Part shown: one piece after another, positions 55,830-62,949 of the stretch | Layout of the letters: every line of letters begins with the position of its first letter | How positions within the stretch are numbered: position 1 is the stretch's first letter | From: Catenovulum sediminis | Lineage (GTDB): Bacteria; Pseudomonadota; Gammaproteobacteria; Enterobacterales; Alteromonadaceae | Direction of reading: 5' to 3' | Assembly (NCBI RefSeq): GCF_007289895.1 | Contig: NZ_CP041660.1 | Coordinates: 3,286,001-3,350,000, forward strand | Length of the DNA stretch: 64,000 nucleotides | Position numbers and translations under genes: made by a program | Notes under the pieces: model-generated | Told to the model about the DNA's origin: nothing | Seen by the model: the letters and a program-made list of their open reading frames with translations, nothing else | The model's database searches: none

Positions 55830-56009
55830 ATGGCATCAACCAATAAAAAAGACAACGAAAAGCACGTTTCTGATTTGTGGATAGCCCTAGGTGTTGGTGT
55901 AGGCTGCACTTTAGGTCTGGCACTTGATAATGTCGCGGTCGGAATTACAATTGGTATCGCTGTTGGGTTTGCAATATCGGCCTCTAAAGCAAACCACATT
56001 CAAGATTAA
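55830..56009 (+). CDS. Small glycine-rich membrane protein
   Basis: A 59-residue protein from the ATG at 55830, preceded by GAGGGA. A charged N-terminus (about 1-15) is followed by two short hydrophobic, Gly-rich segments (IALGVGVGCTLGLAL and ITIGIAVGFAISAS) that look like a glycine-zipper hairpin. A TTG start at 55773 would add 19 residues but has no ribosome site. Its end overlaps the LacI-type gene by 4 bases. Function unknown. Confidence 0.6.
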   Translation: MASTNKKDNEKHVSDLWIALGVGVGCTLGLALDNVAVGITIGIAVGFAISASKANHIQD

Positions 56010-57037
56010 ACTTTATTTGCCGATCCCGCTGATTCGCGAATAACAATCTCAGGGTGAACTACACAGTTTTGACTAATCGCTTGAGGGTTACCACCTTCTA
56101 TTTTCGCGATAAGTTTATTGGCTGCAAACTTGGCCATTTCCCTTACAGGGCGTTTGATGGTGGTCAGTGCAGGTATGATGCGGGATGCTAATAAGTTATC
56201 ATCGAAACCACATACCGATAATTCATCAGGTATTTTAATACCTAAATCATGTGCGGCTTTAATGACACCAGATGCCATTTCATCGTTATTGGCAAAAATA
56301 GCGGTAGGGCGATTTTCTAAGGTCAATAAGTGTCGACCTTGTTCGATACCGCTTTCGTATTGGTTTGTACCTTCAACAACTAAATCTGCTGCTAAAGGTT
56401 GACCCATCTCCTGCATTGTATTGCTAAAACCTTCAAAGCGTTCGCGCGAAGAGCGGTAGTTCAGCGGCCCTGTTATCATCGCGATTTTTTGATGGTTAAG
56501 AGAGGTAATATATTTAGCCATCTCGGCAGCTGCATGTCTGTCGTTTGACATCACAAAATTTTCACTGGCTTCGGAAAAGCCTGAAACTAAACGAACATAC
56601 GGAATGCTATTTTGATCTAACACGTCAGCTAAGCTATCTACTTCAGAGGCAGGCGGTAAGAGAACGATACCGTCGAGCTTAGAACGCCGAACAAAATTAA
56701 CCACATTATTATTCAGATCTGGACTTTTATACCGGCAGGGATGAACAACAAGTTCATAACCTTTCTGGCTGCAAAATTCTAAGATCCCACGTTGTATATC
56801 ATCAATATATAATGCATCAGGGTTATCGTAAACTAAACCAAGTAAATAAGATCGGCTAGACGCTAAGCCTCTAGCTTGTTTGTCTGGTACATAGTTGTAC
56901 TGTTCAATGATTTTCTCAACTTTAATTTTAGTTTGTTCACCGACTTTGGGTGATTGGTTAATCACGCGTGAAACTGTTCGTTTAGAAACACCAGCCAGCC
57001 TGGCTATGTCATTTATCGTTATTTTTTCTTGATTCAT
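56006..57037 (-). CDS. LacI-family repressor, probably of the hexonate/gluconate genes
   Basis: A 343-residue repressor. The helix-turn-helix (about 5-30, TINDIARLAGVSKRTVSRVI) and hinge helix (PDKQARGLASSR) precede a periplasmic-binding-protein-like sugar domain (about 60-335, ending DELSVCGFDDNLLASRIIPALTTI). It is divergent from gntK, and a perfect palindrome of LacI-operator type lies in that spacer and again before the uxaE-like gene, so it probably represses both operons until an aldonate binds. It functionally resembles GntR of E. coli, itself a LacI-family protein; the ligand is inferred. Confidence 0.88.
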   Translation of the reverse strand: MNQEKITINDIARLAGVSKRTVSRVINQSPKVGEQTKIKVEKIIEQYNYVPDKQARGLASSRSYLLGLVYDNPDALYIDDIQRGILEFCSQKGYELVVHPCRYKSPDLNNNVVNFVRRSKLDGIVLLPPASEVDSLADVLDQNSIPYVRLVSGFSEASENFVMSNDRHAAAEMAKYITSLNHQKIAMITGPLNYRSSRERFEGFSNTMQEMGQPLAADLVVEGTNQYESGIEQGRHLLTLENRPTAIFANNDEMASGVIKAAHDLGIKIPDELSVCGFDDNLLASRIIPALTTIKRPVREMAKFAANKLIAKIEGGNPQAISQNCVVHPEIVIRESAGSANKV

Positions 57038-57346
57038 AATGTCATTATTTAATTTGTTCGGCTCTTATGTATCATAATTAGAGCGAAATGCCTAATTGTA
57101 ATAATATTTTGTAAAATTTTAAATATAAATAGGCTCTTTTAATTTGACACTGCCACCGGTGGCATTATATATTAATCCCATCCTAGTTAATATTATCTTA
57201 GCAGTGGACTTAGTTTTAAATAACGCAGGTTTAAGCTGTGTTAGCGTTAGCAACTAACAAGAGATTGAAGCATACTATTAAACAATTAGCAAAGTAGTGT
57301 TGTTATTATTGCGCTGGTCTGCGTGATTAATACATCAGGAGAGCAA
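57038..57346. other. Divergent spacer between the LacI-type gene and gntK
   Basis: About 310 bases. Besides the operator/promoter at 57144-57173 it holds a leader of roughly 165 bases before gntK, in which I see no strong hairpin, and the promoter of the repressor gene on the other strand, which I could not place. Confidence 0.4.
57144..57173 (+). promoter_or_regulatory. Promoter of gntK operon with LacI-type operator inside it
   Basis: The -35 TTGACA is at 57144-57149 and a -10 TATATA/TATATT at 57166-57173 (spacer 16 to 18). The perfect 14-bp palindrome TGCCACCGGTGGCA fills 57151-57164, exactly between the two. A bound repressor would exclude RNA polymerase. Confidence 0.8.
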
Positions 57347-57838
57347 ATGATATATGTAGTGATGGGGGTAAGCGGGTGCGGAAAATCTTCTATTGGCAAA
57401 CAACTGGCTGAAAAGTTAGGGTTAGATTTTTACGATGCTGATGATTTTCACAGCAAAGCGTCGATAGATAAGATGTCTAAAGGTATTCCACTGACCGACG
57501 AAGATCGGCTTCCTTGGTTGAAAGGGTTGGCGAACGAAATGCTAACATGGCAGCAAGATCAGGGGGGTGCTGTTTTGGCGTGTTCTGCGTTAAAAAACAT
57601 TTATCGAGATTGGCTAGCCAGCGAATTGCCGGAAAAGGTGACCTTTATTTATTTGCAGGGCAGTTATGAACTGATTGCTGAACGTTTGCAAAAACGCGCA
57701 AATCATTTTATGAACAGCAGTTTGTTGCAGTCTCAATTTGATACATTAGAAGAGCCGAATGAAAGCCAAGCTGTTATTGTTAATATTGACAACACACCTG
57801 AGTATATAGTTGAAATGATTTTGCGGGAGCTCAAATAA
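57347..57838 (+). CDS. gntK: Gluconokinase
   Basis: A 163-residue P-loop kinase that phosphorylates D-gluconate to 6-phosphogluconate. The Walker A loop is GVSGCGKSS at residues 7-15; DADDFHS and the FIYLQGSYELIAERLQKR segment are typical of GntK. I start at the ATG at 57347 with an AGGAG site 5-8 bases upstream; a GTG eight codons before it would include that site. Its stop overlaps the next gene in TAATG. It supplies the substrate of Gnd encoded 4 kb downstream. Confidence 0.94.
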   Translation: MIYVVMGVSGCGKSSIGKQLAEKLGLDFYDADDFHSKASIDKMSKGIPLTDEDRLPWLKGLANEMLTWQQDQGGAVLACSALKNIYRDWLASELPEKVTFIYLQGSYELIAERLQKRANHFMNSSLLQSQFDTLEEPNESQAVIVNIDNTPEYIVEMILRELK

Positions 57839-59130
57839 TGTCTTATCCAATACACGCTGTAGACACAGACAATACCATTAGTGATGACGCGTTAATTAAA
57901 ATATTGGATGAATTTATCCAACAAAAAGCGGCCACCGCAAAACGCATTTTAATTTTACCACCGGATATTACCCGTTTTTATTCAAAAGCCGGTTTTATTT
58001 CAGCGTATCTTTATAAAGCACTTAAAGATCAAGCCGAAATCTACTTTTTGCCGGCCTTGGGTACGCACGACCCAATGTCAGACGATGAAATTGACGCGAT
58101 GTTTGGTCCAGATATTCCTAAATCATTATTTATTCCGCATCGATGGCGCACAGACGTTAAAAAGTTTGGCGAAATTAGCCCTCAGCGAATGCTTGAATTA
58201 TCGGAAGGCAAATTAGATTACACAATGGACGTGGCGGCTAATAAAATCTTAGATGAAGGTAATTGGGATCTTATTGTTTCAGTCGGTCAGATAGTGCCGC
58301 ATGAAGTGATTGGTATGGCAAATTACACCAAAAATATACTGGTTGGTACGGGCGGCTCGGATACCATTCACAAATCTCATTTTTTAGGCGCTGTGTATGG
58401 CATGGAGCGCATTATGGGGCAGGTTAATACCCCTGTCAGGCAGGCCTTAAATGAAGGTTTTGATGAATATTTACGACATCTGCCCATTGAATTTATTTTA
58501 ACCGTATTGGGTAACAAAAATGACAAGCTTGCGTTGCAAGGTGTGTTTTGTGGCAATCAAACAGAGACCTATACGCAAGCATGCAAACTGAGTCAGAAAC
58601 TAAATTTAAACCTTTTGGAAAAGCCAATTAACAAAGCGGTTGTTTATTTAGAGCCCAGTGAATTTAAAACAACTTGGTTAGGCAACAAAGCCATTTATCG
58701 AACACGGATGGCGATGGCTGATGGCGGTGACTTGATTGTATTAGCGCCAGCGTTACATCGGTTTGGTGAGGACATGGAAATTGATCAGCTTATTCGTAAA
58801 TTTGGCTATAAAACTACAGATGAAACATTAGCGGCGGTTAAACAAAACCCGCAACTGGCTTCTAATTTATCTGCTGCGGCGCATTTAATTCATGGTACAA
58901 CGGATAATCGCTTTAATGTGACATATTGTCCGGCTGACGGCGTTTCCAAAGAAGAAATAGAATCTGTTAATTATCAGTATTGCCACTATCAAGAAATGAT
59001 TAAAAAGTATCCCATTGAGACATTGAAAGATGGTTGGAATACCATGCCGGACGGTGAAGAAATTTTCTATGTCAGCAATCCAGCTTTAGGCTTGTGGGCC
59101 TATAAAGATAAATTTATTGAAGCGGTTTAA
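57838..59130 (+). CDS. LarA-family nickel-pincer epimerase homolog, probably a hexonate (gluconate) 2-epimerase
   Basis: A 430-residue member of the lactate racemase (LarA/DUF2088) superfamily, whose members use a nickel-pincer nucleotide to racemise or epimerise 2-hydroxyacids by hydride transfer. Catalytic and cofactor residues known from LarA can be placed: Asp43 and Arg46 in PPDITRF, His77 in LGTHDPM, His155 in VPHEV and the cofactor-bearing Lys165 in YTKNILVG, with the 155-165 spacing equal to 174-184 in the Lactobacillus enzyme. Its place between gluconokinase and larE, under the gluconate-type operator, suggests a D-gluconate/D-mannonate epimerase. The substrate is inferred from context and from reports of gluconate epimerases in this superfamily. 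Confidence 0.82.
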   Translation: MSYPIHAVDTDNTISDDALIKILDEFIQQKAATAKRILILPPDITRFYSKAGFISAYLYKALKDQAEIYFLPALGTHDPMSDDEIDAMFGPDIPKSLFIPHRWRTDVKKFGEISPQRMLELSEGKLDYTMDVAANKILDEGNWDLIVSVGQIVPHEVIGMANYTKNILVGTGGSDTIHKSHFLGAVYGMERIMGQVNTPVRQALNEGFDEYLRHLPIEFILTVLGNKNDKLALQGVFCGNQTETYTQACKLSQKLNLNLLEKPINKAVVYLEPSEFKTTWLGNKAIYRTRMAMADGGDLIVLAPALHRFGEDMEIDQLIRKFGYKTTDETLAAVKQNPQLASNLSAAAHLIHGTTDNRFNVTYCPADGVSKEEIESVNYQYCHYQEMIKKYPIETLKDGWNTMPDGEEIFYVSNPALGLWAYKDKFIEAV

Positions 59131-59182
59131 ATTGTGTACCGAAATTGCATAGTGGCTGAAGTTCAAAGGTGAGAGGCAGCGC

Positions 59183-59977
59183 GTGGTATTCGTTGAAGAT
59201 AAGTTAAAACAGCTCATTGATGTTTTAAATCAATATCCGACTTTAGCCGTCGCGGTCAGTGGGGGTGTTGATAGCATGTTATTGATGTATGTTGCTAACA
59301 GTTTTGCTGATAGTGATGTTATTGCCGCGCATGCTTATTCACCCGCTGTGCCTTCTTCTGCATTTAAACTGATACAAAGTTATACGCTAAATTATGGCTG
59401 GACATTAAAGCTATTAGATGCGCAAGAATTGAAAGAAGAAAGATACAAAAATAATCCTGTTAACCGTTGCTATTATTGCAAGCGAAATTTGTATCAGCGC
59501 ATTGCTCATTGTTTTAATCGAACGATTGCCTCAGGTACAAATTTAGATGATTTATCCGATTATCGACCTGGCTTGCAAGCGGCAGAAGAGTATTCTGTTG
59601 TTCACCCCTATGTGAAGGCGAATATGACAAAAGGCGATATATATGAACTTGCAGCTTATCTAAATCTACAAGAGCTCAAATGCTTGCCTCCACAACCTTG
59701 TTTAGCCAGTCGAATAGAAACAGGTATATCGATTAAACAAACAACTTTAAAGTTTATTGATTTGTTAGAGAGCAAACTGAAAGACATTATGCAAAAAACG
59801 GATACAGTCCGTTGTCGAATTACGCAACAAGGCGTAGTGGTAGAGTTAGGCAATATGCCTGATGACACTTTGTTGATGCAAATTATGCAATACGTTAAGC
59901 AAGAATGTGAACAACATAATTATGTGTTTTCAGGTGTCAGACCTTATCAAAAAGGATCTGCTTTTAAATCTGCTTAA
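59183..59977 (+). CDS. larE: LarE-type sulfur transferase for the nickel-pincer cofactor
   Basis: A 264-residue PP-loop protein (SGGVDSM at 26-32) that thiolates the pyridinium nucleotide precursor to make the LarA cofactor. Three cysteines stand at the positions that hold an iron-sulfur cluster in some LarE proteins: Cys96 and Cys99 in NRCYYCKRNLY, and Cys173 in QPCLASRI, the equivalent of the sacrificial Cys176 of Lactobacillus LarE. This suggests the catalytic, cluster-dependent class instead of the self-sacrificing one. The start is GTG after GAGAGG. It is third in the gntK operon. LarB and LarC, also needed, are not in the window. Confidence 0.87.
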   Translation: MVFVEDKLKQLIDVLNQYPTLAVAVSGGVDSMLLMYVANSFADSDVIAAHAYSPAVPSSAFKLIQSYTLNYGWTLKLLDAQELKEERYKNNPVNRCYYCKRNLYQRIAHCFNRTIASGTNLDDLSDYRPGLQAAEEYSVVHPYVKANMTKGDIYELAAYLNLQELKCLPPQPCLASRIETGISIKQTTLKFIDLLESKLKDIMQKTDTVRCRITQQGVVVELGNMPDDTLLMQIMQYVKQECEQHNYVFSGVRPYQKGSAFKSA

Positions 59978-60070
59978 TTTTATCAGCAGGTTAAAAATTA
60001 GATATTTAAATTATGGGTAAAATCGACAAGCATGTACCTATTTACTTTTGGGGGTTATCGTTAGTTAAGT

Positions 60071-60135
60071 TTGGGTACATGACATTAATCTACTATGAAT
60101 ATTTTTGCACTCACACTGCCACCGGTGGCAGTGTG
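60071..60135 (+). promoter_or_regulatory. Promoter and 24-bp palindromic operator of the uxaE-like/gnd operon
   Basis: A promoter TTGGGT (60071-60076), 17 bases, TATGAA (60094-60099) precedes a perfect palindrome at 60112-60135 whose 14-bp core TGCCACCGGTGGCA (60117-60130) is identical to the one at 57151. The site falls just downstream of the expected transcription start, where a bound LacI-type repressor blocks elongation or opening. Confidence 0.8.
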
Positions 60136-60170
60136 TGGCGGAGATTCAATAATTCTAATGAGGTGATAAT

Positions 60171-61418
60171 ATGTTAAAAATTGAAAAGTATACAATTGGC
60201 GTGGGTGACAGATTTGGTCATCAGGCAGAGGCTCAGTTACAGGCGATGATTGAGGCAAAAGAAAAGCTTGGTGTTGAAATCTTCCCCGTGTGGAATAAAT
60301 CAAACAGAGAGCATCAAATAATTGGTACTCAACCGCAAAGCTTGCGTGATGAAGCAGATGCTGCGGTAAAAGCGAAAAATTGGCAGTTACCTTATTTTGT
60401 TGATGCTGACCATATTCAACTGGGCAATGTAGACGCGTTTATTGCATGTAGTAACTTTTTTACTTTGGATGTCGCTGAACAAATAGGTTTAGCAGCACCC
60501 GATGAAGATATTGAATCTTTTGTCAAAGCACAGGCTAAATACATCGGCCAGCTACAGATCCCGGGCATTGACGAGGTGTTTGATGTCAGTGAAGAGCAGG
60601 TACGCTCAATTGCTAAAGAGTTTCTAGGGGCCGTTAAACTGGCAAAACAAATTTACGATAAAATCACAGCAAACAAGAATGGAGAGTTTGTAACTGAGGT
60701 TTCAATGGATGAATGTGAAAACCCTCAGACGCCATTGGAATTGTTTTTTATATTAAGTGCAATTGCACAAGAAGGTATCCCAGCTCAAACCATTGCACCT
60801 AAATTTACCGGTCGCTTTAACAAAGGTGTTGATTATGTGGGAGATGTTGTACAATTTGACAAAGAGTTTGATCAAGACTTGGCTGTCATAGCGTATGCAA
60901 TTAGTGAGTTTGGTTTACCTGAAACTTTGAAATTAAGTGTTCATTCGGGTTCTGATAAGTTTTCTATTTATGAATCTATCGGCAAAAATTTGAAAAAACA
61001 TAATGCAGGCATACACTTAAAAACAGCTGGTACCACTTGGTTAGAAGAGCTTATTGGCTTGGCTGAATCAGAAGGTGAAGGATTGGTTATCGCAAAAGAA
61101 GTGTATTCTAATTCTTTAGATAACTATGAAGCTTTATGCGCGCCTTATGCAACCGTTATTGACATTGATCCAGCTAAACTTCCAACAGCAGATACGGTAA
61201 ATGCTTGGACAGGCCAGCAGTATGCAAACGCATTACGTCATGATTTGAACCACCCTGATTATAACCCGCATTTGCGTCAGTTATTACATGTTGGTTATAA
61301 AGTCGCTGCACAAATGGGTGATCGTTATTTACAAGCTTTGAAAGACAATAAAGATATTGTTGGCAAGAATGTAACTGAAAATATTTTTGAGCGTCATATA
61401 AGCAGAATATTTGCATAA
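60171..61418 (+). CDS. UxaE-like protein (tagaturonate epimerase family)
   Basis: A 415-residue protein. It matches, from memory, the family annotated as tagaturonate epimerase (UxaE): GVGDRFGHQAEAQLQAMI, PVWNKSNREH, LPYFVDADHIQLGNVDAFI, APKFTGRFNKGVDYVGDV and LLHVGYKVAAQMGDRY are highly conserved stretches. UxaE of Thermotoga interconverts D-tagaturonate and D-fructuronate. No uronate isomerase or reductase genes are nearby; instead gnd follows, so the true substrate here may be another hexulosonate or hexonate. It is directly under the palindromic operator. Confidence 0.75.
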   Translation: MLKIEKYTIGVGDRFGHQAEAQLQAMIEAKEKLGVEIFPVWNKSNREHQIIGTQPQSLRDEADAAVKAKNWQLPYFVDADHIQLGNVDAFIACSNFFTLDVAEQIGLAAPDEDIESFVKAQAKYIGQLQIPGIDEVFDVSEEQVRSIAKEFLGAVKLAKQIYDKITANKNGEFVTEVSMDECENPQTPLELFFILSAIAQEGIPAQTIAPKFTGRFNKGVDYVGDVVQFDKEFDQDLAVIAYAISEFGLPETLKLSVHSGSDKFSIYESIGKNLKKHNAGIHLKTAGTTWLEELIGLAESEGEGLVIAKEVYSNSLDNYEALCAPYATVIDIDPAKLPTADTVNAWTGQQYANALRHDLNHPDYNPHLRQLLHVGYKVAAQMGDRYLQALKDNKDIVGKNVTENIFERHISRIFA

Positions 61419-61431
61419 GACGCTGGTAAGA

Positions 61432-61453
61432 CCTTGGGCCCGCACGCCCAAGG
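61432..61453 (+). repeat. Intercistronic hairpin between uxaE-like gene and gnd
   Basis: CCTTGGGC (61432-61439), loop of 6, GCCCAAGG (61446-61453), a perfect 8-bp GC-rich stem 14 bases after the upstream stop. No T run follows, so it is not a full terminator. It may attenuate, or protect or process, the mRNA between the two genes. Confidence 0.65.
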
Positions 61454-61479
61454 AATATATCAATACATGGGAGAACATA

Positions 61480-62949
61480 ATGAAAGCAAAATCAGATATC
61501 GGCCTAGTCGGTTTGGCTGTAATGGGTGAAAACCTGGTGCTTAATATGGCAAGCAAGGGGTTTACCGTTACAGCGTATAACCGTACATACGATAAAGTAG
61601 AAAAATTTTTAAATGGCCGAGCTGAAGGAAAATCCATTCGAGGTGCTGATAGTATAGAGTCGCTTGTTGCTTCTTTAGAAAAACCACGCAAAATCATGTT
61701 GATGGTAAAAGCGGGACAGCCTGTTGATGATTTTATCGAACAGTTGATTCCCCACCTAGAAAAAGGTGACATTATTATTGATGGTGGTAATACGCATTTT
61801 CCAGATTCAAATCGCCGTACTGAATATTTAGCCAGCAAAGGCTTACATTACATTGGCACCGGTGTATCAGGTGGTGAAGAGGGCGCATTAAAAGGTCCTT
61901 CAATTATGCCAGGCGGAGCCAAAGAAGCATGGCCATTTGTAAAAGATATATTTCAAGGCATTTCAGCTAAAGTAGCAGACGAGAATGGTGATTTAACCGT
62001 TCCTTGTTGTGATTGGGTTGGTGATGCAGGTGCGGGTCACTTTGTGAAAATGGTTCACAACGGCATCGAATATGGTGATATGCAATTGATTTGTGAAGCA
62101 TATCAGTTAATGAAAACGGTATTGGGTTTATCTGCAGATGAAATTCATCAAGTATTTGCACAATGGAATGAAACGGAACTAGACAGTTATTTAATTGAAA
62201 TCACCCGAGACATTTTTGCCTATAAAGATGAAAACGGTGAGCCTTTAGTAGAACAAATTTTAGATACAGCTGGACAAAAAGGTACCGGTAAATGGACAGG
62301 TGTTGTCGCGTTAGATTTGGGCGTTCCTTTAACCTTAATTGCTGAATCTGTATTTGCACGTTGTATTTCTGCACAAAAAGAAGAGCGTGTTGAAGCTTCT
62401 AAAGTTATAGAAGGCCCAGCAATAGAATTTGCGGGCGATAAAAAAGCCTTTATCGAAGACCTTCGTCAAGCATTATTAGCCGCTAAAATGGTTTCTTACG
62501 CACAAGGTTATGTATTGATGCGCGAAGCTGCCAAAGAATATGGCTGGGATTTAAATTATGGTGGTATCGCGTTAATGTGGCGTGGTGGTTGTATTATTCG
62601 TTCTGCTTTCTTAGGCAAAATCAAAGAAGCATATGGTAATAATCCAGAATTATCTAACTTATTGTTAGACCCTTATTTTAAAGATACGGTTGTATCCGCT
62701 CAACCGGGCTGGCGTAAAGTCGTTGGTACTGCAATTGCCAACGGTATTCCGGTACCTTGTTTAAGTGCTGCATTAACTTATTTTGACGGCTACCGCACTG
62801 CACGATTGCCTGCCAATTTATTACAAGCGCAGCGTGACTATTTTGGTGCCCACACATATGAGCGTACAGACAAACCGCGTGGTGAGTTTTTCCATACTAA
62901 CTGGACAGGAAGAGGTGGCGACACATCTTCAAGTACCTACAACGTATAA
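61480..62949 (+). CDS. gnd: 6-phosphogluconate dehydrogenase, decarboxylating
   Basis: A 489-residue NADP-dependent enzyme that makes ribulose 5-phosphate and CO2 from 6-phosphogluconate. The dinucleotide motif is GLAVMGENLVLNM near the N-terminus; substrate motifs are GVSGGEEGALKGPSIMPGG and HNGIEYGDMQLI; the C-terminal tail ends HTNWTGRGGDTSSSTYNV. The ATG at 61480 has GGGAGA upstream, whereas a TTG at 61411 lies inside the previous gene. It joins the hexonate regulon through the operator at 60112, so 6-phosphogluconate from GntK is drained through the pentose phosphate pathway. Confidence 0.95.
   Translation: MKAKSDIGLVGLAVMGENLVLNMASKGFTVTAYNRTYDKVEKFLNGRAEGKSIRGADSIESLVASLEKPRKIMLMVKAGQPVDDFIEQLIPHLEKGDIIIDGGNTHFPDSNRRTEYLASKGLHYIGTGVSGGEEGALKGPSIMPGGAKEAWPFVKDIFQGISAKVADENGDLTVPCCDWVGDAGAGHFVKMVHNGIEYGDMQLICEAYQLMKTVLGLSADEIHQVFAQWNETELDSYLIEITRDIFAYKDENGEPLVEQILDTAGQKGTGKWTGVVALDLGVPLTLIAESVFARCISAQKEERVEASKVIEGPAIEFAGDKKAFIEDLRQALLAAKMVSYAQGYVLMREAAKEYGWDLNYGGIALMWRGGCIIRSAFLGKIKEAYGNNPELSNLLLDPYFKDTVVSAQPGWRKVVGTAIANGIPVPCLSAALTYFDGYRTARLPANLLQAQRDYFGAHTYERTDKPRGEFFHTNWTGRGGDTSSSTYNV

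Follow-up and report, generated by a model that had tools for sequence, protein, structure and literature searches.

A putative LacI-type regulon of Catenovulum sediminis predicted to lead from pectin-derived hexuronates, via a group-18 nickel-pincer epimerase, to the pentose phosphate pathway

We analyzed a stretch of 64,000 nucleotides of Catenovulum sediminis DNA (the window, contig NZ_CP041660.1, C1:3286001-3350000), in which a LacI-type repressor gene adjoins two short gene runs, gntK-larA-larE and uxaE-gnd. The genome, given as 100% complete, has 4,868,003 bases on two contigs (C1 and C2). In our reading, to which we assign a probability of about 0.82, this locus would be the lower half of a LacI-switched pectin/hexuronate utilization regulon, leading from uronate via mannonate and gluconate to the pentose phosphate pathway. 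UxaC would isomerize D-galacturonate (or D-glucuronate) to D-tagaturonate (D-fructuronate), UxaE would epimerize tagaturonate to fructuronate, and a UxuB-like reductase would yield D-mannonate. A nickel-pincer enzyme, the group-18 LarA, with its rare nickel cofactor made by LarB/C/E, would then invert C2 to produce D-gluconate, to be phosphorylated by GntK and then oxidized and decarboxylated by Gnd to ribulose 5-phosphate. The LacI-type repressor, acting at TGCYACCGGTRGCA, would control these genes and, along with them, pectin lyases, hydrolases and transporters. We infer the individual reactions, the pairing of repressor and site, the operons and the direction of flux from what the sequences show: the gene set, sites, conserved residues, clustering and, in relatives, gene fusions.

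The six genes, lacI included, are open reading frames (ORFs) located where an earlier, sequence-only reading of this DNA had placed them, and profile matches confirm the gene set, positions and families that it named (Table 1). For gntK, a GTG at 57323 is a possible start, and in relatives the start is MIYVVMGVSGCGKS or nearby, hence our choice of 57347. The larA ATG overlaps the gntK stop by one base (57838 is the last base of the stop codon). Judging from spacing and from the sites described below, gntK-larA-larE and uxaE-gnd appear to form two operons. Family searches of the whole genome found one UxaE, one group-18 LarA, two UxaC and one LarC.

As for the control of these genes, the same palindrome precedes both runs next to the LacI-type gene, as the sequence-only reading had stated. 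At both window sites the 14-bp core is a perfect palindrome, while the longer flanks are palindromic at site 2 only. The site 1 pattern with its flanking letters, at ≤3 mismatches, gives four strand-matches at two sites, versus 0.09 expected from shuffles. Site 1 sits within the spacer of a TTGACA/TATATT promoter-like match, the best of the scanned region, so that a bound repressor would block polymerase there; promoter-like matches overall (27, versus 21.8 with a standard deviation of 5.1 in shuffles) are not clearly above background.

Across the whole genome, there are 13 palindrome sites with ≤1 mismatch, versus ~0.22 expected from the base composition of the window, and at ≤2 mismatches there are 27, versus five for the reversed pattern. 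By position, 11 of the 13 sites adjoin gntK, uxaE or the other genes listed in Table 1, the TonB receptors being counted as neighbors in the regulon for their position and not for a known substrate. Two sites with two mismatches lie in the same pectin cluster. One of these, at C1:3838667, precedes a run on one strand of GH28, an ORF without Pfam match, an ORF that by eye resembles GDSL esterases, a pectinesterase, a reductase and a kdgK-like gene (284.6 bits, cut-off 400). Since uxaC shares the palindrome, the input is most likely hexuronate. The sequence-only reading had instead proposed non-gluconate hexonates, which does not sit well with a palindrome shared by uxaC, pectin lyase and hydrolase genes and a TRAP transporter, nor with a fructuronate-reductase-like gene, which lies behind a weaker site in this genome or, in relatives, within the clusters themselves. 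Other parts of that reading, namely the co-regulation of the genes, a nickel-pincer C2 epimerase that would feed GntK and Gnd, and access to the pentose phosphate pathway by a way that avoids 2-keto-3-deoxygluconate, gain support from the sequence.

Table 1. Features of the locus and palindrome sites elsewhere in the genome. Positions without prefix are those of the window.
Feature	Position	Strand	Remarks
lacI, LacI-family repressor gene	56006-57037	-	PF00356 + PF13377; divergent from gntK
Promoter-like match, TTGACA 57144-57149 / TATATT 57168-57173	57144-57173	+	18-bp spacer; 11/12 consensus
Operator-like site 1, TGCCACCGGTGGCA	57151-57164	.	upstream of gntK
gntK, gluconokinase, GntK/IdnK type	57347-57838	+	TIGR01313, 185.9 bits, cut-off 113.75 (ORF taken from 57323)
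larA homolog, group 18	57838-59130	+	NF052594 'NPN_18_hexonate', 616.2 bits, cut-off 500
larE, sacrificial sulfur transferase, nickel-pincer cofactor synthesis	59183-59977	+	TIGR00268, 229.1 bits, cut-off 150
Operator-like site 2, 24-bp perfect palindrome with core TGCCACCGGTGGCA	60112-60135 (core 60117-60130)	.	upstream of uxaE
uxaE, tagaturonate 3-epimerase family	60171-61418	+	PF16257, 193.5 bits, cut-off 27.1
gnd, NADP-dependent 6-phosphogluconate dehydrogenase	61480-62949	+	TIGR00873 Gnd, 781.6 bits, cut-off 426.7
uxaC/TonB receptor	C1:3389355, C1:3389612		two sites, ≤1 mismatch
Second TonB receptor			one site, ≤1 mismatch
Third TonB receptor, beside pectin cluster			two sites, ≤1 mismatch
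TRAP transporter/GH88			one site, ≤1 mismatch
GDSL esterase/BD-FAE esterase			one site, ≤1 mismatch
GH88-GH43 enzyme			one site, ≤1 mismatch; overlaps first codons of longest frame
Pectate lyase with CBM77			one site, ≤1 mismatch

Between gnd and uxaC (C1:3350-3382 kb), two ORFs stand out for their length, 4050 and 3760 codons.

The LacI-type protein probably binds these palindrome sites, as suggested by their distribution in relatives. Our locus set consisted of the best 80 of 378 group-18 LarA relatives, searched by tblastn at 1e-8; many contigs are short and all counts are lower bounds. A GntK match ≤2 kb upstream of group-18 larA occurs in 17 loci, five of which also have a LacI ortholog (62-81% identity); the TGCYACCGGTRGCA site lies between lacI and gntK in 5/5 loci with the ortholog and, in the DNA examined, in 0/12 without it. 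Likewise, Saccharobesus litoralis has both LacI and the site, while in the stretch examined of Catenovulum adriaticum the annotation lists no LacI and the site is absent. A literature search found no paper on this LacI regulon.

As for the LarA homolog, its NCBIfam name is 'nickel-dependent putative hexonate epimerase', group 18, and no other protein in the genome matches that family. Among the best 80 relatives, the closest (88%) are those of Catenovulum sp. 2E275 and an uncultured Alteromonadaceae bacterium. A phmmer search matches it to PDB entry 4nar (E 1.4e-30), which we take to be the Thermotoga maritima epimerase. When the matched segments of 81 sequences (the window and 80 loci) were compared, the nickel-pincer nucleotide (NPN) and catalytic residues R46, H77, H155, K165, H181 and K284 were kept in 81/81 and D43 in 80/81; in the order D43, R46, H77, H155, K165, H181 and K284, these were equated by eye with D72, R75, H108, H174, K184, H200 and K298 in alignments to PDB chains, K284 from 4nar only. 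The substrate-loop E156-V157 after the catalytic His and W280 of alpha-11 are also invariant (81/81), in a comparison that covered the loop and alpha-11, not alpha-14. Such an E-V loop and W are reported as a signature common to LarA groups 18-20, and Desguin et al. (2020) hypothesized that group 18 epimerizes a hexonate, in the manner of groups 19 and 20; one member of each of these two, GntE1 and GntE2, converts D-mannonate to D-gluconate (PMC7583248). In the available parts of that paper, the table of tested enzymes contains no group-18 protein. A 2024 survey tested nine homologs (LarAH10, 15, 32, 42, 43, 51, 52, 62 and 66), among which LarAH15 of Phytophthora is a gluconate epimerase; the available text does not state whether any of the nine belongs to group 18 (PMC11770544). 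Our best reading for the group-18 LarA is a predicted C2 epimerization of D-mannonate to D-gluconate, which would give this group a concrete and easily assayed candidate substrate pair.

Genes for cofactor synthesis are larE in the window and larC and larB at C1:314965-318353, in a block that also holds a second larE-like ORF (by eye) and a small membrane protein. This protein has an H-A-F-D-A-D-H motif, presumably one of nickel transporters, and no Pfam or NCBIfam match; its relative in locus L011 has a sub-threshold DsbD_2 match only (23.7, cut-off 24.9). It is possibly a dedicated nickel importer, a label that is a guess. The block adjoins a gene for an ExuR/UxuR-like GntR regulator.

As for UxaE, the protein has 415 residues and matches positions 78-472 of the 475 in the PF16257 profile, leaving the first 77 unmatched. 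Since UxaE proteins of relatives (L011-L014 and S. litoralis) are of similar length, we do not take the full profile length as a defining feature of UxaE function. Its nearest solved relatives are the Cohnella UxaE structures 6il9, 6ila and 6ilb (6il9, E 4.3e-29), in which Asp159 and Glu126 are reported as the retro-aldol pair (PMC11194214). E47 and D80 of the window protein align with Glu126 and Asp159, by our own count of residues along the alignment, and are invariant (8/8); two His-containing motifs of the Cohnella enzyme are also kept. A retro-aldol epimerase requires a keto substrate, which makes a plain hexonate an unlikely substrate for UxaE, and with the catalytic residues of tagaturonate epimerase retained, a second hexonate epimerase is unneeded. 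The proposal that UxaE acts on another hexonate center thus finds no support in its conserved Glu/Asp pair. Another short UxaE, 55% identical to that of the window, occurs in Acidisarcina polymorpha. Its gene, on plasmid pACPOL3, has a LacI gene, a fucP-like transporter and an alcohol dehydrogenase nearby, and the gene table of this stretch, which is incomplete, lists neither larA nor gnd.

The genes recur together in relatives. Loci L011-L013 have the full block, lacI|site|gntK-larA-larC-larE-larB|site|uxaE-gnd, which in L013 adjoins uxaC, while L022 and L024 have uxuB-uxaC-TRAP-gntK-larA-larC-larE-larB (in these five, LarC, LarB and TRAP were read by eye; they are named in the annotated C. 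adriaticum locus). Over the 80 loci, UxaE is found in seven and GntK in 17, compared with 25 for Gnd, 16 for LarE, 12 for the LacI family, 12 for UxaC (five at only 25-28% identity) and 10 for the UxuB family. The 63 loci L028-L090 contain Gnd in 21, UxaC in six, UxaE in three and GntK in one; a kinase cluster occurs in 11 of them, and its one tested member is a PfkB. Two of these loci come from other phyla, L058 (Ignavibacteriaceae; UxaE 28% identical) and L063 (Caldisericaceae; UxaE 42%), and have UxaC, UxaE, ORFs resembling short-chain dehydrogenases/reductases, a PfkB-type kinase, group-18 LarA and Gnd close together. In a separate survey of 147 genomes of the family, scored for group-18 LarA, UxuA, ManD over cut-off and UxaE, the last occurs in four, all among the eight with a group-18 LarA, one of the matches (G138) containing a stop codon.

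Further support comes from gene fusions, which would be expected if kinase and epimerase act in sequence. In S. litoralis (NZ_CP026605.1, WP_159084288.1, L116:10944-12713) and C. maritimum (L014:9515-11290), gntK and larA form a single in-frame gene of 590 and 592 codons, respectively, uninterrupted up to its final stop. These fusions would link the epimerase with the phosphorylation of gluconate. G049 and G085 have open frames of 603 and 606 residues that span one LarA each, and may be these same species. On the S. litoralis plasmid, the site precedes gntK-larA, uxaE (with one end base changed) and uxaC; uxaE and a uxaC are listed there for this strain under its former name, Catenovulum sp. 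CCB-QB4 (PMC7953866). The plasmid fusion is annotated as gluconokinase only.

The LarA route has company in this genome. The sequence-only reading held that mannonate dehydratase is bypassed, and UxuA was indeed not found by family search, but a ManD mannonate dehydratase is encoded at C2:330369-331574 (736.7 bits, cut-off 550), so the strain can probably dehydrate mannonate too. As for a classical uronate pathway elsewhere, part of one is thus present on the second contig. The ManD gene shares its cluster (C2:324-332 kb) with a second uxaC, an altronate/galactarate-dehydratase-like gene, what by eye is a TRAP-type transporter, and a long ORF resembling a TonB receptor, the whole being a separate uronate route. 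A search for the classical altronate branch gave one PF04295 match, at C2:324607, whose only NCBIfam model is galactarate dehydratase (290.6 bits, cut-off 730.85). Among the 147 genomes, group-18 LarA occurs in eight, UxuA in 25 and ManD in 26. The eight include two with UxuA (G040, where it lies 6 kb from the LarA gene, and G049), four with ManD (G000, G050, G113 and G138) and two with neither (G085 and G009, which carry below-cut-off relatives of ManD). We rejected group-18 LarA as a strict replacement of mannonate dehydratase, neither dehydratase being rarer in these genomes; the LarA route is parallel to mannonate dehydration, not exclusive. In G085 and G009, if the drafts are complete, it would be the sole mannonate outlet known. 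In Paraglaciecola algarum, a ManD gene (L021:14194-15402; 733 bits, cut-off 550) lies beside a larA-larC-larE-larB block, a layout showing that epimerase and dehydratase can occur in one cluster.

The order of the last steps could differ from the one that we propose. In Lactobacillus suebicus cell extracts, phosphorylation followed by epimerization was shown, the genes not being established (PMC6978723), and it is conceivable, if unlikely, that a GntK-type enzyme phosphorylates D-mannonate here and the group-18 LarA epimerizes 6-phospho-D-mannonate to 6-phosphogluconate for Gnd. The KM values for D-mannonate of three tested GntE-type enzymes, 9.4, 17 and 120 (mM by our reading; PMC11770544, PMC7583248), that of GntE1 being called very high by the 2020 authors (PMC7583248), are in line with this order, and the two GntK-LarA fusions are compatible with either. 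However, T. maritima GntE2 acts on free D-mannonate (PMC7583248) and E. coli GntK is cited as unable to use it (PMC6978723). In the parts of the LarA literature available, no sugar-acid phosphate was found as substrate of a LarA homolog. We give a slim chance to a 6-phospho-D-mannonate 2-epimerase channeled from a mannonate kinase; if true, group-18 LarA would be a nickel-pincer enzyme whose substrate is a phosphorylated sugar acid.

The substrate itself could be another one. That LarA acts on a different C2 pair (such as L-gulonate/L-idonate or D-altronate/D-allonate), with GntK as an idonate-type kinase, would agree with a family named just 'putative hexonate epimerase', with a TIGR01313 model that spans GntK and IdnK, and with the altronate/galactarate-dehydratase-like gene on the second contig. 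It is quite improbable, since 6-phosphogluconate is the substrate of Gnd, which belongs to this regulon, and UxaC and UxaE lead towards mannonate; no idonate dehydrogenase was noticed in the blocks read, though no search was aimed at one. As for the hexonate pathway of the sequence-only reading, with a UxaE-like protein inverting a second aldonate center, the five genes alone are compatible with it, and UxaE is short and divergent. We nevertheless give it almost no credence: the palindrome at uxaC speaks against a hexonate-only input, the retro-aldol Glu/Asp pair is kept in UxaE and its mechanism demands a keto substrate, and loci L015 and L022-L024 have uxuB, uxaC and larA, with no uxaE seen in the DNA examined.

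Several observations count against the hexuronate route that we favor. Of the 17 loci L011-L027, several of whose contigs are cut, 13 gave no tblastn match to UxaE, and at two of the 13 genomic sites (C1:2519249 and C2:319976) no clear connection with pectin is apparent. The genome encodes three proteins of the mannitol-dehydrogenase family (PF08125), all scoring better with the fructuronate than with the tagaturonate reductase model and below both cut-offs (381.6, 366.5 and 361.9 for the former, cut-off 603). The one in the pectin cluster, which we propose as fructuronate reductase because of its position, has the lowest score, 361.9 bits, and its palindrome has two mismatches. ManD, the second uxaC and the kdgK-like gene offer another outlet for mannonate. 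S. litoralis CCB-QB4 has the block, yet is reported not to grow on galacturonate (PMC7953866), and T. maritima likewise is reported to grow on pectin and not on galacturonate. In the literature, as far as its text was available, no assay of a group-18 LarA enzyme was found.

The closest known system is the UxaR regulon of T. maritima, comprising gnd, uxaE, uxaD, gntE and gntK (Rodionova 2012, via PMC3750489, PMC6978723, PMC7953866). There, as here by shared sites, gnd, uxaE, a LarA-family epimerase and gntK are co-regulated with pectin degradation and transport, and the same route from galacturonate to 6-phosphogluconate was proposed; GntE2 was later shown to act on D-mannonate. The set, of which the sequence-only reading knew no description, is thus already described, and the pathway itself is known. 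The two differ in regulator (GntR-type UxaR versus LacI-type) and in epimerase (LarA group 20 versus group 18), and while uxaD is part of the T. maritima locus, the reductase-like gene here lies ~0.49 Mb away behind a weaker site; UxaE is short here, the Thermotoga length not having been compared. Since the regulator is of the LacI family, the locus works like the UxaR regulon and is not a member of it. At the level of enzymes, GntE1 and GntE2 share with the window LarA the superfamily, catalytic residues, E-V/S loop and alpha-11 W, and belong to groups 19 and 20 instead of 18, while Cohnella UxaE (6IL9) shares family, catalytic Glu/Asp and two His-containing motifs with the window UxaE, which is without the first 77 profile positions. 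The isomerase-phosphoketolase route of L. suebicus also uses UxaC, UxaE and UxuB and brings mannonate carbon to 6-phosphogluconate and 6-phosphogluconate dehydrogenase, but with phosphorylation before epimerization and an epimerase gene that is not established, an untested candidate being named (PMC6978723). New here are a LarA of group 18, a switch of the LacI type, a marine gammaproteobacterium as host, the short UxaE and the in-frame GntK-LarA fusions in two relatives. Together, this suggests that the pectin-to-pentose-phosphate route earlier proposed for Thermotoga also operates in marine gammaproteobacteria, with another regulator and a dependence on nickel.

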